Below are positions 16,871 to 37,400 of a DNA stretch of 64,000 nucleotides, piece by piece (the stretch's first letter is position 1; the number at the start of each line of letters is the position of its first letter). Below the pieces are notes generated by a model. The model was not told the DNA's origin. It saw only the letters and a program-made list of their open reading frames with translations, and searched no databases. The translations under genes were made by a program, and so were the position numbers. The stretch is from Nocardioides sp. L-11A (lineage in GTDB: Bacteria; Actinomycetota; Actinomycetes; Propionibacteriales; Nocardioidaceae), in NCBI GenBank assembly GCA_029961745.1, contig CP124680.1, positions 1,240,001 to 1,304,000 of the forward strand, in the 5' to 3' direction.

Positions 16871-17708
16871 CGGTCGGCAGAAGGGTGACTGTGCGCCGGC
16901 TGAGGTTCACCACGAGGTCCTCCGTGCTCAGATACTGGCCTGACGGCAGGGCCACCAGCAGTTGCACGCAGCGCTCGGTGCCGCACGCTCCGGCAGCACC
17001 CGAGCTGGGTGGATCCGGAGCGGTGCCGTCGTGACTGTGGGGCGTCCAGGCGCCGCCGATGACCCGCACCTCGTCGCCGGTGAGGAGCGGTAGGCCGGTC
17101 AGTTCGCGGAACTGGTCGACGAACGCGGGGGCTGGCATAGCCGTGAGCGCGAGGTCGAGCGCCACCTGTGTCTCGGCCACGGACGGTGGTGGCTGGATGC
17201 CGGTGAGCGACTCCTCGGCGATCACCGTGCCGGTCGGCAGGTCAACAAGGAACTGGTGCAATCGGTCGTCGCGGTAGTCATAGGCCGAGACCTGCGCCCG
17301 CCGGCGACCGTCGCGTTCAGAGGGCGCGGGCAGGTCGGTTGCGAGCACCTCGGCTCCGGGCTCGTCCAGCACATTACGCGTGGAGGAAGTCAGGGAGGTG
17401 AGTGCCAGGCTGATGGCGTAGCCGCGCTCGGCGGTGCTCAACGGAGCGCCGGGCTCGCGCAGCACGGGACGCCTCTCGGGGAGGGCGCCGTCGCCGGCCA
17501 CTGTGAACTCCCCAGTGCCAGCGCCGGAGCCGCTGCCCGGAGCGCCGGGCGAAGGTGACCACTGCAGGACCAGACCACCTGCGATCAGGGAGACTGCGGC
17601 GGCCGCGCTGATCAGAAGTCGACGAGGCATGGCCCAGCGTCGCCCGTCGTCGCGGGGCCGGTGGCCCGATCGCCGCGAGGCCTCGACATCCGGGCCCGAA
17701 CTGCTCAT
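16851..17708 (-). CDS. Membrane-anchored protein resembling copper amine oxidase N2/N3 domains
   Basis: A 285-residue protein with a basic N-terminus, one hydrophobic helix at about 30-47 and a Gly/Ser linker. The body resembles the small N-terminal domains of copper amine oxidases: AQVSAYDYRDDRLHQFLVDL, LPTGTVIAEESLTGIQPPP and QVALDLALTAMPAPAFVDQF match the N2 pattern, and a second strand-rich unit from about 205 looks like N3. It lies directly upstream of, and overlaps by 20 bases, the catalytic-domain gene. ATG 17630, just before the hydrophobic segment, is an alternative start, since an operator-like repeat overlaps ATG 17708. Confidence 0.62.
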   Translation of the reverse strand: MSSSGPDVEASRRSGHRPRDDGRRWAMPRRLLISAAAAVSLIAGGLVLQWSPSPGAPGSGSGAGTGEFTVAGDGALPERRPVLREPGAPLSTAERGYAISLALTSLTSSTRNVLDEPGAEVLATDLPAPSERDGRRRAQVSAYDYRDDRLHQFLVDLPTGTVIAEESLTGIQPPPSVAETQVALDLALTAMPAPAFVDQFRELTGLPLLTGDEVRVIGGAWTPHSHDGTAPDPPSSGAAGACGTERCVQLLVALPSGQYLSTEDLVVNLSRRTVTLLPTGAQSRG

Positions 17709-17719
17709 CTCGGTGACAA
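17702..17719. promoter_or_regulatory. Operator-like repeat TGCTCA-N6-TGACAA at the amine oxidase pair
   Basis: TGCTCA (17702-17707), TCTCGG, TGACAA (17714-17719). The spacing and halves equal those ahead of PucR-1 (19271) and RCC1-like gene 2 (22693). It overlaps the first ATG of the amine-oxidase pair, so either it blocks translation-proximal transcription or the true start is further in. Confidence 0.5.
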
Positions 17720-17805
17720 GTCTCGGCCCGGAGATTTCAGAGTGGCCGGCCGCTGCACGCCATCGCGCGCAGGTTCGGCAGTGGCTGACAGGTACCGGGA
17801 GACGC

Positions 17806-19086
17806 TCAGGTCAGTCGATAGGTGAGGTCGAAGTCGCACTGTTCGCCGGTCTTCCACAGTGCGACGCTGGACTTGAGCACCAGGGTCATCTGGAGCACGA
17901 TGTCGGGGTCGCGCAGGGAGTCGCCGAGGAGTTCGTTGATCCGCCTCCACCGGTAGCGGACGGTCTGGGGGTGGACGCCGAGCTCTGTCGCGAGCGCGCT
18001 CGCGCTGCCACGGGTCTCCGCCCAGGCCAGCAACGTCTCGGACAGGATGGTGCGCGACGTGGCCGGCTCGGTGAGGAGCGGCCGCAGCACCTGTTGACAC
18101 AGGTGGCGTCGCAGAGACGGTTCTGCGTGCAGCCAGAGTTGGGTCGCGTGATCAGCGCAATCGATCACCGGACGCGGCGCAATGACGCCGGCTCGGGTGA
18201 GGTCTAGGGCGCGTTGACACCAGCGCAGCGCCGAACCGGCCTCCGTCACCGCCACCGGCCAGCTCCGCGCGATGCGCGCACCGGAGTCCGAGCGACTGAT
18301 CTGCTCGACAACGGTTGCCTGGCTCTCCTCCGGGCAGAGGACGAGCACGCTGCGGGGTTGGACGTGGACCAGAACCTCTCGGCGGGTCGGTATGACCGGC
18401 GGGTCGCGACGGTGCGCGATGGCCAGTGCCACGACCCTCTCGGGAAGCGGCCAGCGGGCGAGCTCGGCCAGGTCCCGCAGTTCTCGGTCGTCGAGCCGTT
18501 GGTCCGGCCCGGGACGGGCTCGGGGCCGGGTGTCTCGCAGCAGCCGGAACAGTCGGACCCGCGCAGTGCCGGGGTCGCGCCCACGTGCCTCCTGCGCGAG
18601 ATCGAAACCCTCGCCGAGGAGGCGGTGCAGGTGTGCCAGGAAGTCGAAGAGGGTATCGGCCAGCTCCCGGAGAGCCGCGCCGGACAGGTCGTGATCGACG
18701 GCAAAGTCGGCGAGATACCGCCAGGAGCACTGGGTCGCGGTGTGCATCGCGGTATCGATCGACTCCCGGCTTCCGCCTCGACGCCCTTGGGCGTAGCCGA
18801 GGCCGCGGAAGATCTCGTCGACCTGATGGGCGCGCTCGGGCTGGCGGGATGCGCCGTCGAGGAAGACCTGAGCTGCGGCCCGCGATGCCGCGATGAGAAG
18901 TCGGTGCCGCCGCGTCCCGGCGCGGCCCGCATGTGCCGGTACGGCGTCTTGGACCTGGCGGACGATGGTGGAAGTGGCCCGGGTCATCTGTGGCCGCAGC
19001 GCATTCGCCATGGGCGGTGGCGACAACTGGCCCGTCGCACCGGCGACCGTTCCCGGTCCGGGCTTCCGTCTTCGATTGCTGTCCAT
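17806..19086 (-). CDS. PucR/CdaR-type transcriptional regulator 1
   Basis: A 426-residue regulator. The C-terminal 60 residues hold the PucR helix-turn-helix (LATELGVHPQTVRYRWRRINELLG). The long N-terminal and central part is the family's ligand/GGDEF-like region, with RELADTLFDFLAHLHRLLGEG and LPERVVALAIAHRR. A second gene of nearly equal length and similar sequence lies at 37465. Such regulators usually activate nearby catabolic or uptake genes. The start at ATG 19086 (MDSNRRRKPG) is a choice; later starts are possible. CRP-like and TGACAA-type repeats lie 110-200 bases upstream. It reads towards the amine-oxidase pair. Confidence 0.88.
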   Translation of the reverse strand: MDSNRRRKPGPGTVAGATGQLSPPPMANALRPQMTRATSTIVRQVQDAVPAHAGRAGTRRHRLLIAASRAAAQVFLDGASRQPERAHQVDEIFRGLGYAQGRRGGSRESIDTAMHTATQCSWRYLADFAVDHDLSGAALRELADTLFDFLAHLHRLLGEGFDLAQEARGRDPGTARVRLFRLLRDTRPRARPGPDQRLDDRELRDLAELARWPLPERVVALAIAHRRDPPVIPTRREVLVHVQPRSVLVLCPEESQATVVEQISRSDSGARIARSWPVAVTEAGSALRWCQRALDLTRAGVIAPRPVIDCADHATQLWLHAEPSLRRHLCQQVLRPLLTEPATSRTILSETLLAWAETRGSASALATELGVHPQTVRYRWRRINELLGDSLRDPDIVLQMTLVLKSSVALWKTGEQCDFDLTYRLT

Positions 19087-19198
19087 GTCCCGTAGTCGTC
19101 CCTCTGCCGTCCGGTGTCGGTGCCTTTCAGCGCAGTCCCACCGTGACCGGCCGCGAGCTCGTCCCTCTCTGAGGGTGCGCCGCATTGACGCTGAGTTG

Positions 19199-19214
19199 AG
19201 TGACCAGCGTCACA
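19199..19214. promoter_or_regulatory. CRP-like site AGTGA-CCAGCG-TCACA
   Basis: The half-sites match the TGTGA-N6-TCACA consensus at 9 of 10 positions. It lies 113 bases upstream of PucR-1. An actinobacterial CRP/GlxR-type protein is the likely binder, by established consensus. Confidence 0.5.
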
Positions 19215-19270
19215 TGTCCCGGGTCCGTGGAGCGGGTTAGCTACGCGGGCTGGTCGTCCGGATCGGGAAT

Positions 19271-19288
19271 TGCTCATCCAGTTGACAA
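19271..19288. promoter_or_regulatory. Operator-like repeat TGCTCA-N6-TGACAA ahead of PucR-1
   Basis: TGCTCA (19271-19276), TCCAGT, TGACAA (19283-19288), 185 bases upstream of PucR-1. It has the same halves and spacing as the sites at 17702 and 22693. Confidence 0.5.
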
Positions 19289-19392: not shown

Positions 19393-19461
19393 TCAGACCT
19401 TGACCTAGACCTAGACCTAGATCTTGATCTTGGCCTAGACCTTGACCTTCACCTTGATCTT
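19393..19461 (-). repeat. Hexamer array spanning the stop codon, with AAG/TAG exchange
   Basis: Read on the minus strand, the end of RCC1-like gene 1 is alternating AAG and GTC/ATC/GTG codons (Lys-Val/Ile). The same six-base rhythm continues in frame for 13 codons after the TAG stop (19435-19437), up to an in-frame TGA at 19393-19395. Three further AAG positions have become TAG. Confidence 0.85.
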
Positions 19462-21249
19462 GCCGGCGTCCACCGTGGCGGAGCCGGAGTAGGTCCACGT
19501 AGCCTTGTACGTGCCTCGCTTGAGCTTCTTGAGCTTGACCTTGGCGACACCGTCAGCGCCGACGGTCACCGTGACCTTGTGTGCCTTCGAGCCCTTGGCC
19601 TTGAGCTTGAGCATCACGGTCCCGGCAGCAGAGGTGCCGGTGTCCGTGTCGACGTCGAGGTTGAGGACGGCCTTCTTCGCCATCGCCTTGGTCTTGCCCT
19701 TGACCTTCGTCTTGCCGGCCTTCAGCGTGCTGCCGGCCTTGCTGACCGCCACCGTCGTTGCCGTCGAGACAGACGGGTCGGTGGCGGAGTCTCCGGCGTA
19801 GCTCGCGCTCAGGCTGTGGGCGCCCACGCTCAGGTCAGCGGGAAGCTTCCAGGCGGCCTTGCCGCCGGAGAGGGCGGCGGTGGTGGTCTTGCCGTCGAGG
19901 GTGAAGGTTACCGAGCCGGTGGGTGTTCCGTCCGGGGCGGCGACGGTCGCCGTGGCGATCCGGGCGGCGCCGTAGCCGCCGGCGGCCGGAGCGACCGCCA
20001 GCGTGGTGGTCGACGCCACGGTCGCGGGCGTGACGGGGCCGACCTCGGTCGAGATCGACTCGACGTCGACCGAGCCGCGGGTGGCCGTCGTCCGGTAGCT
20101 GATCATCGAGCCGATCAGGTCCTCGTCCAGCTCCAGCGCGGTGTCGTCGGCGCCGGCGATCGGGTCCCCGTCGGCCAGCCACTGCCCGGTGGCCGGGCTG
20201 TCCGGCTCGAGCGACAGGACGGCGGGCGCGGCGGTCAGGGTCTGGCCAACCCTGGCGGTCCCGGTGACAACCGGAGGCGTCACCAGGTGAAAGTCGGTGA
20301 CCACGGCTGCGGCGTGGTACTGGGAGACGGACACGGCTGCGACCTGCTCGCCGTCGAGCGACGGCGGAATGTCCGTGATCGCAGCGGTCGGCCCCCACGC
20401 GTGGACCTCGCCGTCTTCTGTCACAGCGAGAGCGTTGCCGTCGACGTCGAGCGCGACGACCCGCTTGCCGGTCAACGCAGTGGCGACAGGCGCTGGGATC
20501 GGAGGGGTGAAGCCCCAGACCCTGATGGTGCCATCCTTGAGGATGGCGCCAGCAGATCCGGCTCCGCCCGTAGCGATCTGGGCGACGTTGCCCTGGATCT
20601 CCGGCGGCGTCGTGGCCAGGCCCAGGTCGACGAACGTGCCCCATTCGCTGATCTCGCCGTCAGCGTCCAGGGCCAGCGTGAGGGCGCCAGCTGCCGACAC
20701 GTCCACGAGGCCCGTGAGGCCGGCCGGGGGGGCGGGGTTGGTAGCCGGGTCGTGTGCTGTGCCCCAAGAGGACAGAGTTCCGTCGGTGGTCACGGCGTAC
20801 ACATTCTGTCCGCTGACGCTGACTGCCTGAGCGCTCAAGCCGCTGGGCACGGTCTTGAAAGCCGGATTCGCGCCCCAGGCCACAACGCTCCCATCGCGCT
20901 TGAGGACGGCACCGCCATTGCCGATCAACGAGACAGCGGCTGCCCCGGTGAGATCGTCTGGGGCCAACTGCACGTCGCCGCCGCTGTCGACTCCCCAGAC
21001 GTGTAGGGCACCGTCGTCGGTCACTGCGGCCGAGGCCTTGGTGCTTGTCGCGAGGTCCACGACTTGCTTGCCGTCCAGTGAGTCGGGGAGGTCGAGGGCA
21101 TCCGGGACAGTGCCGGCGTCTCCCCACGCCTCGAGGTAGCCGGTTCGGTCGGCAGGAAGCGGTGCCGGGTCGGCGTAGGACGGCAGGCTGGTCAGCCCAG
21201 CGAACAGAGCGCCGGTCGCGGTCGCGGCCAGCAGGGGTCGGATTCTCAT
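19435..21249 (-). CDS. Secreted RCC1-like seven-bladed propeller with Ig-like domains, 1
   Basis: A 604-residue exported protein. The signal peptide covers residues 1-26 (LPSYADP). Seven blade signatures follow, each ending in a WG turn (YLEAWGDAG, ALHVWGVDS, SVVAWGANP, TLSSWGTAH, EISEWGTFV, TIRVWGFTP, EVHAWGPTA), as in RCC1/BLIP-II propellers, which bind proteins. Residues 310-400 resemble an Ig/PKD-like unit (GQWLADGDPIAGADD), then two Ig-like domains (TPTGSVTFTLDGKTT) and a Lys/Val-rich end. A related protein lies at 22826 on the other strand. A surface or adhesive role is inferred. The C-terminus appears cut short by AAG-to-TAG changes. Confidence 0.83.
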   Translation of the reverse strand: MRIRPLLAATATGALFAGLTSLPSYADPAPLPADRTGYLEAWGDAGTVPDALDLPDSLDGKQVVDLATSTKASAAVTDDGALHVWGVDSGGDVQLAPDDLTGAAAVSLIGNGGAVLKRDGSVVAWGANPAFKTVPSGLSAQAVSVSGQNVYAVTTDGTLSSWGTAHDPATNPAPPAGLTGLVDVSAAGALTLALDADGEISEWGTFVDLGLATTPPEIQGNVAQIATGGAGSAGAILKDGTIRVWGFTPPIPAPVATALTGKRVVALDVDGNALAVTEDGEVHAWGPTAAITDIPPSLDGEQVAAVSVSQYHAAAVVTDFHLVTPPVVTGTARVGQTLTAAPAVLSLEPDSPATGQWLADGDPIAGADDTALELDEDLIGSMISYRTTATRGSVDVESISTEVGPVTPATVASTTTLAVAPAAGGYGAARIATATVAAPDGTPTGSVTFTLDGKTTTAALSGGKAAWKLPADLSVGAHSLSASYAGDSATDPSVSTATTVAVSKAGSTLKAGKTKVKGKTKAMAKKAVLNLDVDTDTGTSAAGTVMLKLKAKGSKAHKVTVTVGADGVAKVKLKKLKRGTYKATWTYSGSATVDAGKIKVKVKV

Positions 21250-21348: not shown

Positions 21349-21366
21349 TTGTGATGGGCGTCATAA
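21349..21366. promoter_or_regulatory. Hybrid operator-like repeat TTGTGA-N6-TCATAA
   Basis: It reads as a CRP-like site (TGTGA-TGGGCG-TCATA, 9 of 10 matches) and also partly fits the TTGTCA-N6-TGACAA series. It lies 100 bases upstream of RCC1-like gene 1. Confidence 0.45.
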
Positions 21367-21717: not shown

Positions 21718-22401
21718 TCAGGGGATGAAGTTGATCGGACCGTTGGCGGACGTCACGTTGAAGGTCAGGTTGAAGTTGATCGACGCGTTGGGCGGAACCA
21801 TGCCGAAGCAACCCACCACGTTGTCGGCCGTGAGGCCGGGGCCGCTGATGACCAGATCCTGCACAGTGGTTGTGCCGGTGGTCGACTTGATGGCCTCCTT
21901 GAAGTCGGCGTCGACCGAGTTGTTGACAGTCAGGTCGCAGCCGGGACCATCCACCACGAGGCAGTTGTTGACGGCCAGGGTGCCGTCAACGGTGTCGGTG
22001 AACAGGTCGTCCACGGTCGGCAGAGCCCCGCCCACGAGGTCCCAGCTGACCACCAGGTCGCAGACCTGGTTGATCGCCACGCTGATGCCGAGCGGACCGG
22101 TGCAACCGGTGAAGGTGGTGCTGGTGATCACCAGGTAAGGGTTGGGGGCGCTCGTGTTGCTGGAGTTCACGTAGCCGCTGCCGGTGGCGCTGGTGCAGCC
22201 GGCCGGGATGCTGCCCATCGTGACGGTGATCGGGCCCTTGTTGGCCAGGGTCACCGGGTAGGCGCCGTCGGGCAGTGCGGGGTTGCCCACCGTGATGGCA
22301 CGGAGCGGGCCGGTGGCGGCCTGGGCGGCCGGCGAGAACGCCAGGACGGTGAGAACCGCCGCGGCGAGTGTCGTGAGTAGCTTGCGCAACATGGGATTCA
22401 T
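21718..22401 (-). CDS. Secreted protein of unknown function
   Basis: A 227-residue exported protein with a signal peptide ending near residue 28 (SPAAQAATG). The mature part is Thr/Val/Asn-rich, apparently all-strand, with six cysteines (AGCTS, FTGCTG, QVCDL, NNCLV, PGCDL, VGCFG) that could form three disulfides. I do not recognise the family. ATG 22401, 7 bases after GGAG, was chosen over an upstream in-frame ATG. A CRP-like site lies 54 bases upstream and a terminator follows. It sits between the two RCC1-like genes, so the three may act together at the surface. Confidence 0.8.
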   Translation of the reverse strand: MNPMLRKLLTTLAAAVLTVLAFSPAAQAATGPLRAITVGNPALPDGAYPVTLANKGPITVTMGSIPAGCTSATGSGYVNSSNTSAPNPYLVITSTTFTGCTGPLGISVAINQVCDLVVSWDLVGGALPTVDDLFTDTVDGTLAVNNCLVVDGPGCDLTVNNSVDADFKEAIKSTTGTTTVQDLVISGPGLTADNVVGCFGMVPPNASINFNLTFNVTSANGPINFIP

Positions 22402-22454: not shown

Positions 22455-22470
22455 TGTGATCCGGGTCACG
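22455..22470. promoter_or_regulatory. CRP-like site TGTGA-TCCGGG-TCACG
   Basis: It matches TGTGA-N6-TCACA at 9 of 10 half-site positions and lies 54 bases upstream of the secreted-protein gene at 22401. Confidence 0.5.
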
Positions 22471-22692
22471 GCAAGGGGTCTTCGGAAATTGGTGGGGATA
22501 GTGCTGGCCGTTTGTCGTGCGGCTGATAAAGGCGTTTCGATTTCCGAATACCAGTCTGTGTTTCTTGTCGAAAGGTCCCGCGGGGGCGCCTCCATGGCGT
22601 ATCGCGCTCGCGCGCGGGCCGCGGGGCGGTGTTGGGTTCTCGGGTGCCCGCCGCGGGTCGCCGTCATCCAGCGTCGGTTCGTGGCCGGCCCC

Positions 22693-22710
22693 TGCTCACC
22701 GGGGTGACAA
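22693..22710. promoter_or_regulatory. Operator-like repeat TGCTCA-N6-TGACAA ahead of RCC1-like gene 2
   Basis: TGCTCA (22693-22698), CCGGGG, TGACAA (22705-22710), 115 bases before ATG 22826. The TTTCGGGG that follows resembles the flank of the amine-oxidase site. Confidence 0.5.
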
Positions 22711-22825: not shown

Positions 22826-24511
22826 ATGGCGTTGTGGGACATGCGGAGGCTCGATCGGCGGCCACGGCGGTGGCTGAGGTCGGTGACCGTGGCGTCCGCC
22901 GCCGGGGCTCTGGCTTTGGGGGTGCTCGCCGCCACTCCCACCGCCCCCGCCGACGCCGCCCCGTTGCCGGGCGTCACGGCGCGCGGCAACGCGGGCCTGA
23001 TGGCGCCGGTGGATCTGGAGTTCGCTGGAGAGTTCATGGGGTGGGGCCGTGGCAGCGAGGGTCAGACGACGCTGCCGGCCGCGCTGCAGGGCGTGGCACT
23101 GAGCAAAGTCGTTGCCGGGAGCAACATGACGCTGGCCTTGACCGCGGCCGGCCGCGTGGTTGGCTGGGGCGCCGACGTCGCCCGGCTCTGGGACGTGCCT
23201 GCCGACGTGCAGTCGCTGGACGTGGTGGACATCGCGACCGCAGGCGGATATGCGGGGGTGGTTACTCGCAGCGGTCACGTTCGCATCTGGGGTCAGCCCA
23301 GCGAGGTGGACCCGACGCCGCTCGACGTGCCAGACGGGCTGACCGGGGTCAAGCAGTTGGTGTTCCCGGGCGCTAGCGCCGCACTGGCGTTGCTGGAGGA
23401 TGGCTCCGTGGTGGGCTGGGGTTGGGGCCAAGAGGGGGTAACCACGCCACCGGCCGGGCTGAAAGCCAAGGCGATCACCGGTGTCAATCTGGCAGCCTAC
23501 GCGATCACCGAGGACGACACTGTTGTCGGCTGGGGCACAGCTGCCGGCCATTCGCTGCCCCCGGAGACCCAGGAAATCGGCAACGTAGTCGCTGTTTCCG
23601 CGGTCACAGCCCCCGGTGACCAGGCTCGTGGGATGGCCGAGTTGGCCGACGGTTCGCTCGTGACCTGGGGCATCGCTGGTCCAGAGTTGCCTGATGTCGG
23701 CCCAGATCAGGTCGTCGCATTTGCATCGTCCCAAGGATCGCTGGTGCTGACCGAGGATGGGGTCTTCCACCCGGGTGGCTCCACAGTTGGAAATCCACCT
23801 GTTCGGACCCTGCTGACCCCACCGGCCGAGGCCCAGGAGCAGGCGGTGGCTCAGTTCAGCGTGGGCAGCGCTCATGCTGCAATGATCGTCACCAAGATGC
23901 TGCGGGCTGTGGACCCGACGGTCGCCGGGTCTCCCGAGGTGGGGACGACGCTGACCGGCACGCCGGGCACATTCTCCGCGGATCCGGACCAGGTGACGAG
24001 TGTGTGGCTGGCCGATGGACAGCCGATTCCCGGTGCCGAGGGGGCCACGCTGACGCTCACGGACAACCTGGCCGGCAAGCGGCTCAGCTACCGCTCGACC
24101 GCCACCAAGGCCGGCGAGGAGTCGATCTCGTCGACCTCGCCCGCGACCGCACCGGTAACTATGCCGAAGCCCCTGACGCCGCCGAAGGTGAGCTCCACTA
24201 CGACCGTCGGCAAGGTCAAGGTCGCCAAGAGGGCTGTCAAGATCAAGCTCAAGGGCACGGTCAGCTCCGGTGCCAGCCTGGCCGGGCAGGCTGAGGTCAC
24301 TATTGCCAAGGGCAAGAAGACGATCGTGACGACGTCGGTCCCCGTCGCGGTCGATGGCACCTTCAAACTGACGGTGAAGAAGTTCGCCAAGCGTGTCGCC
24401 AAGAAGACGAAGAAGGCATATCCCGGCAAGTACCGGATTACGATCGCCTATCTCGGCAATGCCGGAGTGCTGCCAAGCAGTGGTAGCGCGACCGTCAAGG
24501 TCAAGCGGTAG
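22826..24511 (+). CDS. Secreted RCC1-like seven-bladed propeller with Ig-like domains, 2
   Basis: A 561-residue exported protein related to the one at 19435. The signal peptide ends near residue 45 (APADAAPLP). Propeller turns include EFMGWGRGS, RVVGWGADV, HVRIWGQPS, SVVGWGWGQ, TVVGWGTAA and SLVTWGIAG, with a degenerate seventh (VFHPGGS). An Ig-like unit (SVWLADGQPIPGAEG) and a Lys-rich Ig-like domain ending KVKR follow. ATG 22826 follows GAGGAGGA. It is shorter than its paralogue by about one Ig domain. The gene after it starts 6 bases on, so they probably form one transcript. Confidence 0.83.
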   Translation: MALWDMRRLDRRPRRWLRSVTVASAAGALALGVLAATPTAPADAAPLPGVTARGNAGLMAPVDLEFAGEFMGWGRGSEGQTTLPAALQGVALSKVVAGSNMTLALTAAGRVVGWGADVARLWDVPADVQSLDVVDIATAGGYAGVVTRSGHVRIWGQPSEVDPTPLDVPDGLTGVKQLVFPGASAALALLEDGSVVGWGWGQEGVTTPPAGLKAKAITGVNLAAYAITEDDTVVGWGTAAGHSLPPETQEIGNVVAVSAVTAPGDQARGMAELADGSLVTWGIAGPELPDVGPDQVVAFASSQGSLVLTEDGVFHPGGSTVGNPPVRTLLTPPAEAQEQAVAQFSVGSAHAAMIVTKMLRAVDPTVAGSPEVGTTLTGTPGTFSADPDQVTSVWLADGQPIPGAEGATLTLTDNLAGKRLSYRSTATKAGEESISSTSPATAPVTMPKPLTPPKVSSTTTVGKVKVAKRAVKIKLKGTVSSGASLAGQAEVTIAKGKKTIVTTSVPVAVDGTFKLTVKKFAKRVAKKTKKAYPGKYRITIAYLGNAGVLPSSGSATVKVKR

Positions 24512-25554: not shown

Positions 25555-25594
25555 GGCAACCGTTGTTGTCACCCCCCTGACAACAACGGTTGCC
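25555..25594. terminator. Long hairpin between the secreted-protein genes and the mce operon
   Basis: A perfect 17-bp stem (arms 25555-25571 and 25578-25594) around CCCCCC. It follows the stop codon by 32 bases and could end transcription. It also contains a perfect TTGTCA-N6-TGACAA repeat, so it may serve both purposes. Confidence 0.65.
25566..25583. promoter_or_regulatory. Operator-like repeat TTGTCA-CCCCCC-TGACAA ahead of mce
   Basis: Perfect half-sites 155 bases upstream of the first mce gene, with the same halves and spacing as the site before PucR-2. It is nested in the longer hairpin at 25555-25594. Confidence 0.5.
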
Positions 25595-29751: not shown

Positions 29752-30857
29752 GCGGCGCGTCCGACCGCCACCACCTGCGCTGGACGGCGGTGAAGGCCCT
29801 GGTGTTCACCGTGGCCACCGTCCTGGCCACCACGGTGCTCGCGCTGACGATCCGCAACAGCTCCGGCGGCGACGCCCAGGACTACGCGGCCGTGTTCACC
29901 GACGTCACGAGCGTGAGCCGCGGCGACGACGTCCGGGTGGCCGGGGTGAAGGTCGGCAGCGTCAAGGACGTGAAGATCACCGACACCCGGCTGGCCAAGG
30001 TGCGCTTCACCGTCCGCAAGGGCGTGCGCCTGCCGGACACCACGATCGTCCAGATCCGGTTCCGCAACCTGGTCGGCCAGCGCTACCTCGCGCTCGTGCA
30101 GCCGTCCGGGGTGACGAGCAGCCCGACGAACGCGCCGGCCGGCAGCGACATCGCGCCGGCGAGCAGCACCACCGGCTCGCCGGCCTCCGGCGGCACGATC
30201 AAGCCGGGGCACACCTTCGGCGTCGAGCAGACCCGGCCCGCGCTGGACCTCACCCTGCTCTTCAACGGCTTCCAGCCGCTGCTGCGGATGCTGGACCCCG
30301 ACGACGTGAACCGCCTCAGCGAGCAGATCATCGCCGTCTTCCAGGGCGAGGGCGCCACGGTCGAGGGGCTGCTGAAGAGCACAGCCTCCCTCACCACCAC
30401 CCTGGCCGAGAAGGACCAGGTGATCGGCGAGCTCATCTCCAGCCTCAGCAGCGTGCTCACCACCGTCAACGAGCGCTCCGGTCAGCTCGACACCACGCTG
30501 GTCACGATGCAGCAGCTGGTCTCCGGCCTCGCCGAGGACCGGGCCGCCATCGGCGGAGCGATCAGCGGCATGGGCGACCTGACGACCAGCATCGCCGACC
30601 TGCTGGGCCGGACCCGCCCGGCGGTGCGTCAGTCGATCCGCCACCTGGGCAAGCTCTCGCAGAACCTCGACGAGCACAGCGCCGAGGTGGAGTCCTTCCT
30701 CGAGCTGCTGCCCGTGAAGCTGGACCGGATCGGCCGGCTGAGCAGCTACGGATCGTGGCTCAACACCTATCTGTGCTCGATGGAGGGACGGATCCCCATG
30801 CCCCAGGGATATATGGGCGACCTCGGCGCCCTCCCGGTCGCGGAGAGGTGCCGGTGA
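29748..30857 (+). CDS. mceB: Mce family protein, MceB position
   Basis: A 369-residue Mce protein. The anchor helix is at about 13-35; the MlaD-type domain has YAAVFTDVTSVSRGDDVRVAGVKVGSVKDVKI and RNLVGQRYLALV. A Ser/Thr/Pro-rich insert near 125-150 separates it from the helical stalk (GVEQTRPALDLTLLFNGFQPLLRML through LLPVKLDRIGRLSSYG). It shares 1 base with the next start codon. Confidence 0.9.
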   Translation: MSGASDRHHLRWTAVKALVFTVATVLATTVLALTIRNSSGGDAQDYAAVFTDVTSVSRGDDVRVAGVKVGSVKDVKITDTRLAKVRFTVRKGVRLPDTTIVQIRFRNLVGQRYLALVQPSGVTSSPTNAPAGSDIAPASSTTGSPASGGTIKPGHTFGVEQTRPALDLTLLFNGFQPLLRMLDPDDVNRLSEQIIAVFQGEGATVEGLLKSTASLTTTLAEKDQVIGELISSLSSVLTTVNERSGQLDTTLVTMQQLVSGLAEDRAAIGGAISGMGDLTTSIADLLGRTRPAVRQSIRHLGKLSQNLDEHSAEVESFLELLPVKLDRIGRLSSYGSWLNTYLCSMEGRIPMPQGYMGDLGALPVAERCR

Positions 30858-31870
30858 TGACCCGCTACCGCCGCTCCTTCGCCGAGCGCAACCTGGTCGT
30901 GATCGCCGTGGTCGGGATGCTCGTCCTGGGCGTGTCCTTCACCGCGGCCCTGAAACTGTCGTCCCTGCCGTTCGTCGGCGACGGCAAGGTCCACGAGGCG
31001 GTGTTCGCCGAGGCCGGTGGGCTCAGCCCGGGCGACGAGGTCCGGGTGGCCGGCGTCCGCGTCGGCGAGGTCACCGAGATCGACCTCCGCGGACGCGACG
31101 TCGTCGTCCGGTTCCGCGCCAAGGGCGTCGACCTCCCCGACCAGACCACGGCCGCGATCAAGGTCAAGACCATGCTCGGCCAGAAGTTCCTGGCGATCGA
31201 CCCGCTCGGCTCCGGTGAGCTCAAGGGGGCGATCCCCCGCGAGCGCACCTCCGTGCCGTACGACGTCAACGCCGCCTTCTCCGACCTGAGCACCGCCGCC
31301 AGCGAGATCGACACGCCCCAGCTCGAGCAGAGCTTCCGGGCGATCTCCGACGCCTTCCGCGGCACCCCCGACTCGGTCCAGCAGATGGTCGAGGGCCTGA
31401 CCGCCCTGTCGCGCACGATCTCCACGCGCGACGACGACCTGGCCGAGCTGCTCAAGGCGACCACGCAGGTCAGCGGCACCCTCGCGGAGCGCCGTGAGCA
31501 GATCGCTGCCCTGATCAACGACGGGTCCGACCTGCTCGGCGAGCTCCAGCAGCGGCGCGACGCGGTCAACGCGATGCTGGTCGGCACCGCCGACCTCGGC
31601 GCCCAGGTCCGTGGCTTCGTGCAGGACAACCAGAAGGCACTCGCCCCGGCCCTGGCCAAGCTCGACAAGGTCTCCGCGATCCTCGAGCGCAACCAGGCCA
31701 ACCTCGACAAGGCGCTGCGCCAGCTCGGCCCGTACTACCGGGTGCTGGCCTCGGCCACGGGCAACGGTCCCTGGGCCGACTCCTACCTGTGCGGCCTGTT
31801 CGACGACGACCTCAACCCGATCCTCGAGAACGACGTGGTCCGCAACTGCCACCCCGGAGGTGCCCGATGA
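30857..31870 (+). CDS. mceC: Mce family protein, MceC position
   Basis: A 337-residue Mce protein with an anchor helix at about 12-32 (NLVVIAVVGMLVLGVSFTAAL), the MlaD-type domain (VFAEAGGLSPGDEVRVAGVRVGEVTEI, KTMLGQKFLAI), then a coiled helical stalk (LAELLKATTQVSGTLAERREQ) and a YYRVLASATGNGPWADSYLCG tail. ATG 30857 follows GGAGAGG; GTG 30854 is also in frame. Confidence 0.9.
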   Translation: MTRYRRSFAERNLVVIAVVGMLVLGVSFTAALKLSSLPFVGDGKVHEAVFAEAGGLSPGDEVRVAGVRVGEVTEIDLRGRDVVVRFRAKGVDLPDQTTAAIKVKTMLGQKFLAIDPLGSGELKGAIPRERTSVPYDVNAAFSDLSTAASEIDTPQLEQSFRAISDAFRGTPDSVQQMVEGLTALSRTISTRDDDLAELLKATTQVSGTLAERREQIAALINDGSDLLGELQQRRDAVNAMLVGTADLGAQVRGFVQDNQKALAPALAKLDKVSAILERNQANLDKALRQLGPYYRVLASATGNGPWADSYLCGLFDDDLNPILENDVVRNCHPGGAR

Positions 31871-32916
31871 GCTCCCTGCGTCAACGCCGGCTCGTGATCG
31901 GCCTGGTGGTGCTCCTCCTCGTCGCCGGCGGCTTCGGTCTCCGAGCGCTGCTGCGCGACGAGCCGGTGCGGTTCAGCGCGATGTTCGAGTCCACGGTCGG
32001 TCTCTACCCGGGCTCCGACGTCCAGGTGCTCGGCGTCCCGGTCGGCCGGGTGACCGCGGTCAAGCCGGTCGGCGAGCAGGTCCGGGTCTCCATGGAGCTC
32101 GAGCCGGGCCGCGACGTGGCCGCCGACACCGCGGCCGTCATCATCGCCCCGACCCTGGTCAGCGACCGGTTCGTCCAGCTCACCTCGCCCTGGGTGGCGG
32201 GGGAGGGCACCGCCAAGCTCCGCTCCGGCGCCGAGCTCGACATGGACCGGACCGCCGTGCCCGTCGAGATCGACGACCTGTACGACGGTCTCAAGAGCGT
32301 GTCCGACGCCCTCGGGCCCGAGGGGGCCAACCGGAACGGCGCGCTCAGCGACCTCCTCGAGGTCGCGGCCGACAACCTGGAGGGTCAGGGCGAGGGCCTC
32401 AACACCATGTTCCGCGAGTTCGGCGAGGCCAGCGCGACGCTGTCCGGTCTCGACGACGACTTCTTCGCCACGATCAGCAACTTCGAGAAGCTCAACGCGA
32501 TGCTGCTCGCCAACGACTCCGCCGTCGGCGAGGTCAACAAGCAGTTCGCGGACGTGGCGGGCTACCTCGCCGAGGACCGCGACGACATGGGCGCCGCGGC
32601 GAAGAACCTCGGCGAGGCGATGCAGGTGCTCGACGACTTCATCCGCGAGAACCGCGGCAAGCTGAAGGACAGCGTCGACAACCTGGTGCCCACCACCAAG
32701 GTGCTGCGCAAGCAGCGCGAGTCCCTGGAGGAGATGGTGCGGCTGGCACCGCTGCTGATGCAGAACCTCCTCGACCTCTACGACCCGGAGCACAACGTCC
32801 TCGTCGGCCGCGGCAACCTCAACGAGGCCACGATCTGGGCCGACGCGCTCACGGCGCGGACCTCCGAGGACGCGCCGCCGACGATGTTCGAGGGCGCCGG
32901 AAGGAGCCGACGATGA
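31867..32916 (+). CDS. mceD: Mce family protein, MceD position
   Basis: A 349-residue Mce protein. The anchor helix (LVIGLVVLLLVAGGFGL) is at about 8-25. The MlaD-type domain contains MFESTVGLYPGSDVQVLGVPVGRVTAV and LVSDRFVQLTS. The helical stalk extends to about 320 (GYLAEDRDDMGAAAKNLGEAM). It overlaps MceC and MceE by 4 bases each. Confidence 0.9.
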   Translation: MSSLRQRRLVIGLVVLLLVAGGFGLRALLRDEPVRFSAMFESTVGLYPGSDVQVLGVPVGRVTAVKPVGEQVRVSMELEPGRDVAADTAAVIIAPTLVSDRFVQLTSPWVAGEGTAKLRSGAELDMDRTAVPVEIDDLYDGLKSVSDALGPEGANRNGALSDLLEVAADNLEGQGEGLNTMFREFGEASATLSGLDDDFFATISNFEKLNAMLLANDSAVGEVNKQFADVAGYLAEDRDDMGAAAKNLGEAMQVLDDFIRENRGKLKDSVDNLVPTTKVLRKQRESLEEMVRLAPLLMQNLLDLYDPEHNVLVGRGNLNEATIWADALTARTSEDAPPTMFEGAGRSRR

Positions 32917-34262
32917 GCATCCGACGCACCACGCGACCGCGGCGTCGTCGTACCGGTCGCTGGGCCGCGGCCGGCGCGGCGCTGGCGTTCGTCCTGTCCG
33001 GATGCGGCCTCGGCGGCGGCATCTACGACGTGCCGCTGCCCGGCGGCGCCGACGTCGGCAGCGACCCGATGACCATCACCGTCGACTTCACCGACGTGGT
33101 CGACCTGGTGCCGCAGAGCAGCGTCAAGGTCTCCAATATCGCCGTCGGCCGGGTCTCGAAGATCGAGCTCAACCCCGACGGGCTCAGCGCCCGGGTCACC
33201 CTGGTGATCCGCAACGACCTGGATCTCCCCGAGAACACCGCCGCCCGACTGCAGCAGTCCTCGCTGCTGGGCGAGAAGTACGTCGCGCTGGTGCGGCCCG
33301 CCACGCCGGCCGGCGGGGACGAGCTGCGCACCGGCTCCCACATCGAGCTCGCCGCGACCAGTCAGGTCGCCGAGGTCGAGCAGGTCCTCGGCGCCGTCTC
33401 GACGGTGCTCAACGGCGGTGCGGTGGGCAAGTTCCAGGAGATCTCCCGCGAGCTGCAGAAGGTCGCCGACGGACGGCCCGAGCAGATCCGCGACTTCCTG
33501 CGCACCACCCGGGTCTTCGTGGAGAGCCTCGACGCGCGCAAGGACGCGATCGCCGACGCCCTCGAGTCGCTGGCGGACCTGTCCACGACGCTCGACGGCG
33601 ACCGGGACAAGATCGCCACCGCGCTCGAGGGGCTCAGTCCCGGCATGAAGGTCCTGGCCGAGCAGCGGCCGCAGCTGGTGGCGATGCTCGAGTCCCTCCA
33701 GCAGCTCAGCACCGTCACGATGCGCACCATGAACGCGGCGAAGGAGGACATGATCGAGGACTTCCGGCTGCTCGAGCCGATCCTCAAGAACCTCGCCGCC
33801 GCCGGTGACGCCCTGCCCGAGTCACTGCAGATCCTGCTCACCTATCCGTTCCCCGACGCCGTGCTCGGCGCGATCAAGGGCGACTACCTCAACGCCTTCG
33901 TGACGACCAACTACAGCTCGCTGCCCCCCGGCTGCGCGGCGATGGGCTGCCCGTGGGCCCAGCCCGGCTTCGACCTCGGCGCCATGGCGTCCGGGCGGCC
34001 GGCGCTGGCGCCGCGCGGCTCCGCTGAGGCGCCGCCGCCCACGACCGAGGGGAAGGCTCCGGCCACGGAGTCGCCGTCGGGCGCGCCGTCCTCGTCGCCG
34101 ACGGCGGGCTCCTCGCCGTCGCCGTCGCTGCTGCCGCCGACGGACTCCCCGGTGCCGGGCATCCCGACGCCGACGCTGCAGGTGCCCAAGCCCAGCGGCA
34201 CCGCGAGTCCGACCGGACCGACCGGCGCACCGTCGTCCACTCCGACCGCTACGGAGGACTGA
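32913..34262 (+). CDS. mceE: Mce family lipoprotein, MceE position
   Basis: A 449-residue Mce lipoprotein. The signal peptide ends in a lipobox (FVLSGCG) with the lipidated Cys near residue 30, the hallmark of the fifth Mce protein in each operon. The MlaD-type domain (VDFTDVVDLVPQSSVKVSNIAVGRVSKIEL, SLLGEKYVALV) and helical stalk follow. A Ser/Pro/Thr-rich disordered tail starts near 360. It shares one base with the MceF start. Confidence 0.93.
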   Translation: MSIRRTTRPRRRRTGRWAAAGAALAFVLSGCGLGGGIYDVPLPGGADVGSDPMTITVDFTDVVDLVPQSSVKVSNIAVGRVSKIELNPDGLSARVTLVIRNDLDLPENTAARLQQSSLLGEKYVALVRPATPAGGDELRTGSHIELAATSQVAEVEQVLGAVSTVLNGGAVGKFQEISRELQKVADGRPEQIRDFLRTTRVFVESLDARKDAIADALESLADLSTTLDGDRDKIATALEGLSPGMKVLAEQRPQLVAMLESLQQLSTVTMRTMNAAKEDMIEDFRLLEPILKNLAAAGDALPESLQILLTYPFPDAVLGAIKGDYLNAFVTTNYSSLPPGCAAMGCPWAQPGFDLGAMASGRPALAPRGSAEAPPPTTEGKAPATESPSGAPSSSPTAGSSPSPSLLPPTDSPVPGIPTPTLQVPKPSGTASPTGPTGAPSSTPTATED

Positions 34263-35419
34263 TGCTCAACATCACCGCCAAGGCCAAGCTGTTCGTCTTC
34301 ATGGCGCTCGCGATGGTGACCACCACCTTCCTCGCGGCCCAGTACGTCGGCCTGGACCGCTATGTCGGCGGCTACCGCGTCACCGTCGACCTCACCGAGG
34401 CCGGCGGCCTGTTCGACAACAGCGAGGTCACCTACCGCGGCGTCCCGGTCGGGCGGGTCGAGAGCCTGGTCGCCACCGGCGACGGCGCCCGCGCCGTGGT
34501 CCGGATCAAGCCCGGCTCGCCCGACATCCCGGCCGACGTGGAGGCGCGGGTCGTCAACCGCTCGGCGATCGGCGAGCAGTACCTCGACCTGCGCGGTGGG
34601 CCGCTCGGCGGCGACAAGTTGGGCGAGGGGGACCGGCTGAGCGTGCGCGCCGACGGCCTGCCGCCGTCGCTCGACGGACTGCTGCGCAGCGGGCGGGACT
34701 TCGTGGCGTCGGTGCCCTCCGAGGCGCTGACCACGGTCATCGACGAGACCTACGACTTCTCGCGCGGCAACGGCCAGCACATGGCCCGCCTGGTCGAGAC
34801 GTCCTCGGAGTTCGCCCGCACGGCGGACAAGAACTTCCTGGTCTCGGCCAGCCTGATCCGCAGCTCCGGCACGGTCCTGGCCACCCAGGAGGCGTCGGCG
34901 GAGAGCTTCCAGAGCTTCAGCGAGGACATGTCGCTGCTGGCCCATGCCCTCGCCGAGCAGGACGACTCGTGGCGCAAGCTGATCGAGCAGACTCCGGCTG
35001 CCGCGCGCGAGCTCGGCACCCTGTTCTCGACCGTCGGACAGCCGCTCGGTGACCTGATGGGCAACCTGGTCTCGACGGCGCAGGTCTTCGGCACCAATGC
35101 GGCGGGGGTCCGCGAGACCCTGATCAAGCTGCCCGAGGGCATCAGCATCACCTACGCCGTGATGACCGCCAAGGGCCTGCGGATGGGTGTCACGCCCACC
35201 TTCTTCAACCCGCTGCCGTGCGTGACCGGCTATGGTGCGACCGAGATGCGCCCAGGCCTGGACACCAGCCCCGGCAAGCCGTTCAACCTCGAGGCCGGCT
35301 GCACCGCCCCCGCCGCGGGCGGCAACGTCCGCGGGCCGAGCGCGGTGCCGAAGGGCAAGCGGCCGGTCGACGTGGACCTGACCGGCAGCCTGGAGGACCT
35401 GATGGGAGGGACGCCGTGA
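34262..35419 (+). CDS. mceF: Mce family protein, MceF position
   Basis: A 385-residue Mce protein, last of the six. The anchor helix is at about 8-28; the MlaD-type domain has VDLTEAGGLFDNSEVTYRGVPVGRVESL and SAIGEQYLDLRGG. The stalk runs to about 300, then YAVMTAKGLRMGVTPTFFNPLPC and a short disordered tail. It overlaps the next gene by 4 bases (GTGA). Confidence 0.9.
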   Translation: MLNITAKAKLFVFMALAMVTTTFLAAQYVGLDRYVGGYRVTVDLTEAGGLFDNSEVTYRGVPVGRVESLVATGDGARAVVRIKPGSPDIPADVEARVVNRSAIGEQYLDLRGGPLGGDKLGEGDRLSVRADGLPPSLDGLLRSGRDFVASVPSEALTTVIDETYDFSRGNGQHMARLVETSSEFARTADKNFLVSASLIRSSGTVLATQEASAESFQSFSEDMSLLAHALAEQDDSWRKLIEQTPAAARELGTLFSTVGQPLGDLMGNLVSTAQVFGTNAAGVRETLIKLPEGISITYAVMTAKGLRMGVTPTFFNPLPCVTGYGATEMRPGLDTSPGKPFNLEAGCTAPAAGGNVRGPSAVPKGKRPVDVDLTGSLEDLMGGTP

Positions 35420-36027
35420 CGGAGGGACGGAACGCACCCGCCGAGGCCGCGGAGGAGTCGGAGCCCGACGTACGCCCGTCGGTCGTGGTGCTGGGCGCGG
35501 ACGACGCCGTGGCCGCCTCGCGACGCCCCCGCCTGGGGAACTGGGCGTGGCTCGTGCTCGCCGCCGGCGTCGTCGCCCTGGTGGCGGCGTACCTGTCCTG
35601 GAGTGGGGCCGACGACGACCCCGCGCTGGCACGCGCGGAGCTGCGTGACCTGGCCGTCATCGAGGGCACGGCCGCGATCGAGACGATGAACTCGATGGAC
35701 TACCGCGACGTCGAGGCGGGCCTGGAGGCCTGGCGCTCGGTCACCACGGGTGTGCTGCGCGACCAGCTGGCCGCGATCGCCGCCGACGAGCGCGAGCTCC
35801 TGGCCGACCAGGGCAAGGTCGCCTCCGGCCGGGTCGTGGAGGCCGCGCTCACCGAGCTCACCGACCGCACCGCCACCATGATCGCGGCCGTGGAGGTCAC
35901 CGTCGCCGACAAGGACCCCGCCCAGGAGCCGACCGTGAAACGGAACCGCTACAGCGCCGACCTCGTCCTGGTCGACGGCCACTGGCTGCTCGAGAACCTC
36001 GCCCAGGTCCCGGTGACCACCTCATGA
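35416..36027 (+). CDS. Mce-associated membrane protein 1
   Basis: A 203-residue single-pass protein. The N-terminus is acidic and disordered; one helix lies at about 44-63 (WLVLAAGVVALVAAYL). The outside domain resembles Mce-associated (Mas) proteins with an NTF2-like fold, including AIETMNSMDYRDVEAGLEAW and SADLVLVDGHWLLENL. Mas proteins stabilise Mce complexes in mycobacteria; here the role is inferred from position. Confidence 0.83.
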   Translation: MTEGRNAPAEAAEESEPDVRPSVVVLGADDAVAASRRPRLGNWAWLVLAAGVVALVAAYLSWSGADDDPALARAELRDLAVIEGTAAIETMNSMDYRDVEAGLEAWRSVTTGVLRDQLAAIAADERELLADQGKVASGRVVEAALTELTDRTATMIAAVEVTVADKDPAQEPTVKRNRYSADLVLVDGHWLLENLAQVPVTTS

Positions 36028-36554
36028 CGGTCATGACGCGATCCGGCAACCGGACCCGGCTCGCCCAGGCGCTCGCGCTGGTGGTCGCCGTCGTCCTGAT
36101 CGGCGTCGCCGCGGTGCTCGCCGTACGGGCGCAGGCGCTGCGCGACGACCCAGCGCTGGCCAACCGCGCCCTGCTCGACGAGGCCGCCGCCCGGGGCGTG
36201 ACGACCGAGGTCTCCCGGGGGCTCGCCCAGGTGTTCAGCTACGACTGGTCGCAGCCCGGGATCACCGAGGCCGCGGCCGACGAGCTGCTCTCCGGCCAGG
36301 CGCGGAAGGAGTACGACACCCTCTTCGCCAGCCTCCAGGAGCGCGCTCCCGACCAGAAGCTCACCCTGAGCACCCAGGTCCAGGTGGCCGGCGTCCAGCG
36401 CCTCACCGAGACCGAGGCGACCCTGCTGGTCTTCCTCGACCAGTCCAGCAGCCGGGCCGAGGACGAGGAGTCCTCGGTGTCGGCCGCCCAGCTACGGGTG
36501 GACGCCGAGCGCAAGGGGCGCTCGTGGGTGATCACGGCCCTCGATCCGCTGTGA
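36024..36554 (+). CDS. Mce-associated membrane protein 2
   Basis: A 176-residue single-pass protein with an N-terminal helix at about 14-36 (AQALALVVAVVLIGVAAVLAV) and an outside domain similar in plan to the preceding protein (TTEVSRGLAQVFSYDWSQPG, LLVFLDQSSSR, GRSWVITALDPL). It overlaps the preceding gene by 4 bases and is the last gene of the mce operon. The convergent XRE gene ends 22 bases away. Confidence 0.83.
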   Translation: MTVMTRSGNRTRLAQALALVVAVVLIGVAAVLAVRAQALRDDPALANRALLDEAAARGVTTEVSRGLAQVFSYDWSQPGITEAAADELLSGQARKEYDTLFASLQERAPDQKLTLSTQVQVAGVQRLTETEATLLVFLDQSSSRAEDEESSVSAAQLRVDAERKGRSWVITALDPL

Positions 36555-36576
36555 CGGCCCGCCGCGGGGCCCGGGC

Positions 36577-36870
36577 TCAGGCGCCGTGCGTCAGATCGGG
36601 TGCCCAGGTGGGGAGCAGCGAGCTGAGCGAGACGCCCAGTGCCTGGCTCAGCGCCATCGTGTTGCGCAGGCTCATGTTGGCCGGCGACCCGGGCTTCGAC
36701 TCGCCCTTCTCGTACTGGCGATAGGTGTTGGCGGCGATCCCGGCACGTTGCGCGACGCGCTCCTGGCTCAGCCCGGAGTCGTGACGGGCCCGCTGGAGGT
36801 TGACGCCGATCTCGCGGACGTAGGCATCCCAGGAGTGGTCGGCGGACGAGGAGGACACGGGGTCAAGCAT
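36577..36870 (-). CDS. XRE-family helix-turn-helix regulator, copy 2
   Basis: A 97-residue single-domain regulator related to copy 1 at 14108. The helix-turn-helix covers REIGVNLQRARHDSGLSQERVA through GIAANTYRQYEKGESKPG, and it ends WAPDLTHGA. ATG 36870 was chosen because it gives a length like copy 1; GTG 36888 is also in frame. A 14-bp palindrome identical in core to a copy-1 site lies just upstream. It is divergent from the second DUF6907-like gene. Confidence 0.87.
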   Translation of the reverse strand: MLDPVSSSSADHSWDAYVREIGVNLQRARHDSGLSQERVAQRAGIAANTYRQYEKGESKPGSPANMSLRNTMALSQALGVSLSSLLPTWAPDLTHGA

Positions 36871-36894
36871 GCCGAGAATCACCGACACAGATGT

Positions 36895-36908
36895 ACATAC
36901 TGGTATGT
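36895..36908. promoter_or_regulatory. ACATAC-TG-GTATGT operator of XRE/DUF6907 cassette 2
   Basis: A 14-bp palindrome. Its 12-base core CATACTGGTATG is the exact reverse complement of 14059-14070 in cassette 1. It lies 25 bases from ATG 36870 and 118 from the DUF6907-like gene. Confidence 0.65.
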
Positions 36909-37025
36909 GGATATCTGGTGAGCGGAGCGCTCTGTGGACAACGTCCGGCCGACGGCGGCAGCTGTCGGGGCTGGTTCCTAGTCTTCAGAGACCGTCACCA
37001 TCCGCCCGGACTCCGGAGGCAGATC

Positions 37026-37397
37026 ATGGAGAGCTCGCGCCCCACCTGGCTCGATGAGCCGTGTCCGTCGTGGTGCCTCCGGGAGCACGACGAGGACGAC
37101 CACCCGGAGGACCGGGAGCACCGCGGCGAGCCGGTGGACCTCGCGGTGGTTGCCACGGGTGAGGATGCTGTACCCGTGACCGATGCCCTGGCCCCGCTCG
37201 ATCTCATCGTGCAGCTCCACCGTCGCGTCGGTGCGCCGGTGGAGTGGGTCAGCATCGAGCCGGCCGAGGCGCGTCAGCCCCGGCTGGCGCTCACGCGCGG
37301 CTCGGCCCGCGCCCTGGCGACCGCGCTGCGCCGGGTCGAGGGCCACCCGGGACCGGGGTCCCTGGTCGAGATCCCGGACGATTTGTCATCTGGATGA
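37026..37397 (+). CDS. DUF6907-like protein, copy 2
   Basis: A 123-residue protein related to the one at 13610. It shares the metal-site-like cluster EPCPSWCLREHDEDDHPED, the middle segment LDLIVQLHRRVGAPVEWVSIEPAEARQPRL and the Ser/Ala-rich helix that follows. It is 13 residues longer at the C-terminus. Function unknown. Its last codons overlap the TTGTCA-N6-TGACAA repeat that precedes PucR-2. Confidence 0.8.
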   Translation: MESSRPTWLDEPCPSWCLREHDEDDHPEDREHRGEPVDLAVVATGEDAVPVTDALAPLDLIVQLHRRVGAPVEWVSIEPAEARQPRLALTRGSARALATALRRVEGHPGPGSLVEIPDDLSSG

Positions 37398-37400
37398 CAA
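37383..37400. promoter_or_regulatory. Operator-like repeat TTGTCA-TCTGGA-TGACAA ahead of PucR-2
   Basis: The arms extend to 8 bp each (TTGTCATC / GATGACAA). It overlaps the stop codon of the DUF6907-like gene and lies 64 bases before PucR-2, a typical place for auto-regulation. Confidence 0.6.

Follow-up and report, generated by a model that had tools for sequence, protein, structure and literature searches.

An 18-bp palindrome with the consensus TTGTCAY-N4-RTGACAA recurs in a stretch of 64,000 nucleotides from Nocardioides sp. L-11A (hereafter the window, positions 1240001-1304000 of a genome made of a single contig of 5,684,321 bases), where it stands upstream of a mce operon, two genes for PucR-type regulators and genes of probably secreted proteins. 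As judged from sequence, the palindrome is a real and conserved predicted operator which defines a predicted regulon. It is probable that autoregulated PucR activators related to MabR drive Mce import and the production of secreted partners via this operator; the regulator acting on it is very probably PucR, and its action is likely to be activation. This gene-control circuit of soil bacteria is apparently undescribed. In agreement with the initial annotation of the window, no description of the operator or of a PucR-controlled mce operon was found among the papers listed from the open-licence literature, as far as the accessible parts of these papers go.

The operator motif in the window and in the genome

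Five exact and two weaker sites had been proposed in the initial annotation. All five exact sites were recovered at the same window coordinates, and the weaker ones at 13523 and 21349 held up when scored with an independent matrix. This matrix was symmetrised and built from exact TTGTCA-N6-TGACAA sites (94 distinct ones, each with 10-bp flanks), taken from fetched loci other than the window and including orthologous sites of near relatives. Its spacer is constrained, with mostly C or T after the left half followed by C or G; two bases outside the left half there is a preference for A. The sites are listed below with their matrix scores; no strand is assigned to them.

17702..17719, exact operator TGCTCATCTCGGTGACAA, score 19.1, upstream of the amine-oxidase pair
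19271..19288, exact operator TGCTCATCCAGTTGACAA, score 6.0, upstream of PucR-1
22693..22710, exact operator TGCTCACCGGGGTGACAA, score 11.4, upstream of RCC1-like gene 2
25566..25583, exact operator TTGTCACCCCCCTGACAA, score 30.2, upstream of the mce operon
37383..37400, exact operator TTGTCATCTGGATGACAA, score 32.9, upstream of PucR-2 (GTG at 37465), at the 3' end of a DUF6907 gene
13523..13540, operator-like site, score 19.8, between convergent gene ends
21349..21366, weak operator, score 4.0, upstream of RCC1-like gene 1
22512..22529, weak operator with two mismatches, score 2.0, upstream of sec1 (21718-22392)

The eight best-scoring places of the window were the seven sites already proposed and the new one at 22512; the ninth (12796) scored -5.5. 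Sixty Markov sequences of 64 kb gave a mean null maximum of -3.1 and a highest one of 11.3, so that the three weakest sites (19271, 21349 and 22512) lie above the mean and below the highest null maximum. With up to two mismatches the window contained 16 matches against 3.6 expected, a number reached in none of 100 shuffles. The recurrence of the motif is beyond chance.

Scanning of the whole genome for exact TKSTCA-N6-TGACAA revealed six places, five of them inside the window, and together with the matrix this showed that the motif is not spread at random density. The sixth place is at 4632010, and the listed ATG of a probably secreted protein follows it at a distance of 113 bp. This protein (L006:1631-2809) is likely to be a distant member of the regulon. 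It displays a hydrophobic N-terminus and a weak C39-like peptidase match below cut-off. Allowing one mismatch added ten places in the genome, and the backward control pattern, likewise with up to one mismatch, gave 4 and 1 on the two strands.

Conservation of the sites and promoter architecture

Orthologous upstream regions were aligned for the mce operon and PucR-2 (five genomes each), the amine-oxidase partner (three) and PucR-1 (two). The operator appeared as a conserved island in all four alignments, confirming that the motif is conserved in orthologous promoters; blocks downstream of it were also conserved, as expected of core promoters. The site before PucR-2 is exact in the relatives G014, G084 and G179 and has one mismatch in G207, while that before the mce operon is exact in G014, G207 and G084 and has one mismatch in G179. 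The TGCTCA half is retained in G084 before both PucR-1 and the amine-oxidase partner, with different spacers. RCC1 genes of all four relatives are also preceded by sites, in G179 at a distance of 126 bp in one case. Placing the 17702 site before the amine-oxidase pair was borne out by orthologous sites in G014 and G084; the part to be revised is the gene start, since the site overlaps the ATG of the partner open reading frame as listed and the conserved start is probably 17632. Sites like 13523, with a TTGCGA or TTGAGA half, were found in G014, G084 and G179, and no gene lies clearly downstream of 13523 itself.

A set of 24 mce promoters with an exact site was obtained after removal of duplicates (16 groups at 60% ungapped identity). 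A TAnnnT element was found at 67-70 bp from the operator centre in 11 of them and at 79-80 bp in another 11, that is in 22 of 24, and at no other distance between 40 and 130 bp in any of the 24. The two promoters lacking the phased element are single-member groups. Both distance classes differ by about one helical turn and, with the first T set at -12, most operator centres fall near -81.5 and -92.5. Class I activators work at such positions, and the geometry of the mce promoters therefore speaks for activation from a single helix face. The predicted elements are as follows.

25642..25647, plus strand, TACGCT, the predicted -10 element of the mce promoter (67 bp to the operator centre)
19199..19214, no strand assigned, CRP/GlxR-like box GTGA-N6-TCAC in the PucR-1 promoter, read from the sequence and conserved in G084
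22455..22470, no strand assigned, CRP/GlxR-like box GTGA-N6-TCAC in the sec1 promoter, read from the sequence

GTGA-N6-TCAC is the consensus of CRP/GlxR-type regulators. It was present in 34 of 169 operator-bearing 250-bp upstream regions versus 17 of 750 others, where the reversed control gave 1 and 0, respectively; box and operator coincide in two of the matches. Among sec1 promoters the box was found in 13 of 19 operator-bearing ones versus 6 of 48 others. No helical phasing is claimed for neighbouring operators, many of whose spacings are orthologous: distances of 32, 84, 94-96 and 105 bp fit whole turns, and those of 23, 48, 77, 90, 117, 123-124, 145, 175-177 and 193 bp fit less well or not at all.

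Co-occurrence of the operator and PucR

Exact TTGTCA-N6-TGACAA was detected at 102 places in 35 of 215 genomes of the genus, against 3 places for the reversed control, and a homologue of PucR-2 (E <= 1e-30) was detected in 36 of them. Motif and PucR occurred together in 33 genomes, PucR alone in 3, the motif alone in 2 and neither in 177. Fisher's test gave P 5e-33 with relatedness ignored, a value which does not refer to independent events, the genomes being related. Near-consensus sites scoring 23.7, 27.0 and 17.9 were present in the three genomes with PucR alone (G096, G111 and G119), and in G127, one of the two with the motif alone, the site lies at the 3' end of a PucR gene with 28-30% identity.

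A stricter pattern, including Y and R, was used for the order, in place of the looser one applied to the genus. It was found in 33 of 391 genomes, all within the same family: 18 of 120 in the genus, 15 of 52 in other genera of the family and 0 of 219 outside it, where the control occurred once. PucR at E <= 1e-60 was detected in 19 of the 52 genomes of other genera; both features were found in 14 of these, the motif only in one, PucR only in five and neither in 32. Four mapped Aeromicrobium loci show the same cluster.

Gene neighbourhoods and predicted regulon membership

The core genes of the cluster in the window are the following.

17806..19086, minus strand, PucR-1 regulator (PF13556, E 1.8e-16)
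37465..38742, plus strand, PucR-2 regulator (PF13556, E 1.4e-15)
38739..39788, plus strand, HADx, haloacid-dehalogenase-like protein (PF00702), directly after PucR-2
25738..36554, plus strand, mce operon with an ATPase-permease fusion, a second permease, Mce proteins and two associated proteins
24518..25522, plus strand, SEC2, no Pfam match, probably secreted
21718..22392, minus strand, sec1, no Pfam match, probably secreted

Gene neighbourhoods were analysed with a simple codon-usage gene caller in about 860 kb around sites and genes of 36 genus genomes, including the window, which contributed only its positions 12000-42000; loci L049 and L053 were excluded. As the fetched stretches are limited (12-40 kb), family counts are lower bounds. 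Out of 36 genomes, PucR and HADx were each present in at least 35, MlaF/YrbE in at least 29, SEC2 in 28, sec1 in 27, Mce in 24 and sec1b in 23, followed by c7 (at least 15), RCC1 (13), XRE (10), DUF6907 (8), the amine oxidase (7) and its partner (7). No member of the family sec1b turned up in the region of the window itself, and the two c7 members run against Pfam gave a weak or clear transglycosylase match. In the core set, 31 of 42 class-A PucR genes have HADx next to them.

Gene order in the cluster is highly variable, and the operators remain before the same families. Exact sites were intergenic in 73 of 76 cases versus 12% of bases. The genes faced by exact sites and starting within 500 bp, divergent sites being counted twice, were PucR (44), mlaF (17), SEC2 (16), sec1 (13), c7 (10), unlabelled genes (4), sec1b (3), RCC1 (2) and XRE, DUF6907 and the amine-oxidase partner (1 each). 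First mce genes with enough upstream sequence numbered 35, from about 28 genus genomes plus additional family loci. An exact site within 300 bp preceded 23 of them and a site with one mismatch only preceded three. Eight of the remaining nine have c7, SEC2 or PucR-c7 ahead in the same direction, with the site before that gene (in one case with one mismatch); the first mce gene of G119 has no site within one mismatch.

The recurrent set consists of PucR, HADx, mce, SEC2 and sec1/sec1b. The initial annotation had joined an amine oxidase, secreted propellers and Mce import into a single PucR regulon; the prediction of such a regulon is supported, and on these counts the amine-oxidase and RCC1 genes would belong to it only in a subset of genomes.

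The PucR regulators and the proposed mechanism

PucR-1 and PucR-2 share 41% identity, and the PucR helix-turn-helix (HTH) domain PF13556 scored above the gathering score in both. The GGDEF-like domain PF17853 was below cut-off in PucR-1 (E 0.049) and not listed for PucR-2. A PucR profile (A1) matched MabR in the PDB (9f80, E 6e-9, aligned positions 168-377). Both window proteins belong to class A, whose recognition helix has the consensus HPQTVRYRWKRINELFG and the pattern H[PA]QT[VI]RYRW[KR]R[IL]N. Of the 44 genomes or family loci containing the cluster, 42 encode a class-A PucR, the exceptions being family locus L206 and genome G043; the count omitted proteins below 280 residues, which concerns the interrupted frames of G043. 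These frames are seen at L117:12073-16154 of a draft genome.

In the mechanism proposed here, the operator would be recognised in the first place by PucR-2 and also by PucR-1, a paralogue whose recognition helix is nearly identical. A PucR dimer would cover the 18-bp palindrome with one half-site per major groove, spaced by about one turn. On the mce promoter PucR would sit near -81.5 or -92.5 as a class I activator on one helix face, and it would also bind upstream of its own gene and of secreted-protein genes. The regulon would co-produce a Mce lipid importer, with lipids as presumed cargo, and extracellular partners such as SEC2 and sec1, joined in the window by the RCC1-like and amine-oxidase-like proteins. 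The signal would probably be a lipid or an acyl-CoA.

Regulated mce operons have precedents. Mce1R, Mce2R and Mce3R of mycobacteria are likewise local regulators of mce operons and differ in being GntR- or TetR-type repressors, not PucR proteins. The mce4 operon of steroid degraders is controlled by KstR, which belongs to the TetR family and thus to another regulator family than PucR. According to the accessible part of PMC7593942, a Nocardioides simplex mce operon induced by cholesterol and lithocholate (KR76_12195-12230) is listed under KstR; a cholesterol link via the RNA-seq data of this species was not adopted.

The closest known regulators are MabR and GabR. MabR (Rv2242), the regulator of the fas-II operon, shares with the proteins studied here the PucR C-terminal HTH, the profile match and, as predicted for the latter, lipid genes as targets, and its site shares TTGT...ACAA with the Nocardioides operator. 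Its targets serve lipid synthesis, whereas the predicted targets of the operator serve import and include secreted proteins. As described in the part of PMC11617747 available, MabR is made of globin-like, GGDEF-like and HTH modules, forms dimers and tetramers and holds its recognition helices one turn apart, which makes it compatible with a palindrome such as the present one. GabR of Corynebacterium glutamicum is a PucR family activator. Its inverted repeats lie in the gap that separates its gene from the target operon, and the same promoter contains a GlxR site, as given in the accessible sections of PMC7652997. It differs by its 21-bp repeats, its role in γ-aminobutyric acid (GABA) catabolism and the lack of a GGDEF-like domain.

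If the proposed mechanism is true, a Mce system from outside the mycolate-bearing bacteria would gain an operator and a regulator as well as a list of genes. Shared control would tie protein families of no assigned function to that system, and a PucR activator would represent a different logic from the GntR- and TetR-type mce repressors. A concrete DNA motif would also open direct effector and binding tests for the PucR family, only a few members of which have been studied according to the part of PMC7652997 consulted.

Sites beyond the family

Among 393 genomes of the class, 30 contained the stricter palindrome; 20 of these fall outside the family and account for 26 places, one of which (G663, contig 8) is the same locus as L186. 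Six of the 26 have a distant PucR gene within 400 bp downstream (L212, L215, L216, L218, L222 and L224), and no mce or SEC2 gene was present in the fetched stretch of these six. Conversely, 56 loci with distant PucR relatives contained an exact site somewhere in three cases and within 400 bp upstream of PucR in none. It is possible, if rather doubtful, that TTGTCAY-N4-RTGACAA marks a broad clan of MabR-related PucR proteins governing envelope-lipid traffic across Actinomycetes. Such a clan would be switched by a lipid signal and control Mce import with extracellular partners in Nocardioidaceae and acyl-AMP-ligase, MMPL and polyketide-synthase loci elsewhere; SEC2, sec1 and sec1b would then possibly be lipid carriers or wall-spanning conduits in bacteria devoid of a mycolate layer.

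Some gene contexts were recorded among these loci. A polyketide synthase gene adjoins the PucR gene in L218. Another such gene follows the L243 site at about 100 bp and is itself followed by a PucR gene. Other sites precede AMP-ligase and MMPL transporter genes (L219 and L221), an MMPL gene (L211) or an AMP-ligase gene (L214).

Alternative explanations

PucR could bind the operator as a repressor that its signal releases, in the manner of the TetR- and GntR-type repressors of mce operons. The autoregulatory sites upstream of PucR genes and the neighbouring sites 23-193 bp apart would fit a looping repressor. Against this, 22 of 24 mce promoters have their -10-like element about 70-80 bp downstream of the operator, which leaves the core promoter uncovered, and the few characterised PucR proteins are activators, except PucR of B. 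subtilis which does both (PMC7652997, accessible part). Repression is thus considered unlikely. Still less probable is that another protein, either the XRE regulator encoded beside DUF6907 or a regulator elsewhere, binds the motif while PucR merely travels along. Two XRE-DUF6907 pairs flank the region and co-location is not binding, but the XRE family was found in at least 10 of the 36 fetched genomes versus 35 for PucR, and XRE was not favoured as the binder on this count. Moreover, genomes devoid of PucR are nearly all devoid of the motif, and the six PucR-associated sites outside the family keep PucR with neither mce nor SEC2 in the fetched stretch.

The idea that the sites are transcription terminators or chance palindromes has hardly any probability. 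It draws on the 25566 site, which lies within a perfect hairpin with 18-bp arms (-41.8 kcal/mol, z -7.8) just past the stop codon of SEC2 and, taken alone, could be a terminator. The sites, on the contrary, precede genes, keep phase with a -10-like element and are conserved where no hairpin is formed; the TGCTCA sites are asymmetric, and the reversed pattern occurs at 3 places only versus 102. A hairpin-only explanation of 25566 was rejected, as orthologous mce promoters keep TTGTCA/TGACAA and the distance to the -10 element in the absence of the long hairpin.

Several observations weigh against activation by PucR through this operator. PucR promoters display no common TAnnnT distance (36 bp in five, 114-116 bp in four, none in most). 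Many other clusters encode a second PucR with a different recognition helix, so that either PucR may act at a given site of such two-PucR clusters. The MabR test oligonucleotide GTTTTGTTGGTTATATACAAAAA contains TTGT-N9-ACAA, whereas the sites described here have TTGT-N10-ACAA with CA/TG inside. The dependence among genomes behind the Fisher value counts in the same direction, as do G220, with a site and no PucR match at 1e-30, G392, with a site and no PucR in the fetched 20 kb, and the five genomes of other genera in which PucR is present and a stricter-pattern site absent. Outside the family, 20 of the 26 sites have no PucR within 400 bp downstream, two of these being in stretches of 45-47% G+C where chance is likely, and many have no recognised lipid gene, most neighbours not having been run.

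Other genes of the region

In the mce operon, three members were run against Pfam. The first gene (25738-27495) gave MlaE (1.6e-65) and ABC_tran (2.8e-30) and encodes an ABC ATPase fused to a MlaE permease; 28348-29751 gave MlaD (3.3e-13) and Mce4_CUP1 (9.3e-49), and 36024-36554 gave no match above cut-off. MlaE permease, ABC ATPase and MlaD/Mce proteins, the components expected of a Mce lipid importer, are thus found in one operon.

SEC2 has at least 50 listed homologues, the few carrying a source name being called hypothetical, and no relative in the PDB; neither SEC2 nor sec1 has a Pfam match, and among the names listed their relatives are called only hypothetical or secreted protein. A hydrophobic N-terminal stretch was seen in 17 of 29 SEC2, 40 of 48 sec1 and 24 of 26 sec1b proteins by a crude count, not a signal-peptide predictor, and the three families are probably secreted. 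The remaining genes are listed below.

22826..24511, plus strand, RCC1-like gene 2, RCC1_2 above and WD40_RLD below cut-off
19435..21249, minus strand, RCC1-like gene 1, RCC1_2 and Big_3_5 above and WD40_RLD below cut-off
14897..16870, minus strand, copper-amine-oxidase-like protein (PF01179, E 1.3e-27)
16851..17708, minus strand, partner of the amine-oxidase-like gene, no Pfam match

HWH and HH motifs which resemble copper ligands are retained in the amine-oxidase-like protein and in its homologues. The tyrosine forming topaquinone (TPQ) was not found: its expected place, located with the TPQ motif, reads [GA]LGA[AT] in six of seven proteins, and the seventh as called lacks the segment. Because of this replacement in six of seven, the protein may not be an amine oxidase.

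The end of RCC1-like gene 1 (19395-19450) contains degenerate CCTAGA/CCTTGA repeats, and two genes of the window at 57691-60401 are weakly similar to RCC1-like gene 2. The region is flanked by two divergent XRE-DUF6907 pairs that are paralogous (13610-14390 and 36580-37397). A tandem repeat encoding RFDG[VI]DQ was noted within a small protein at 14620-14745.

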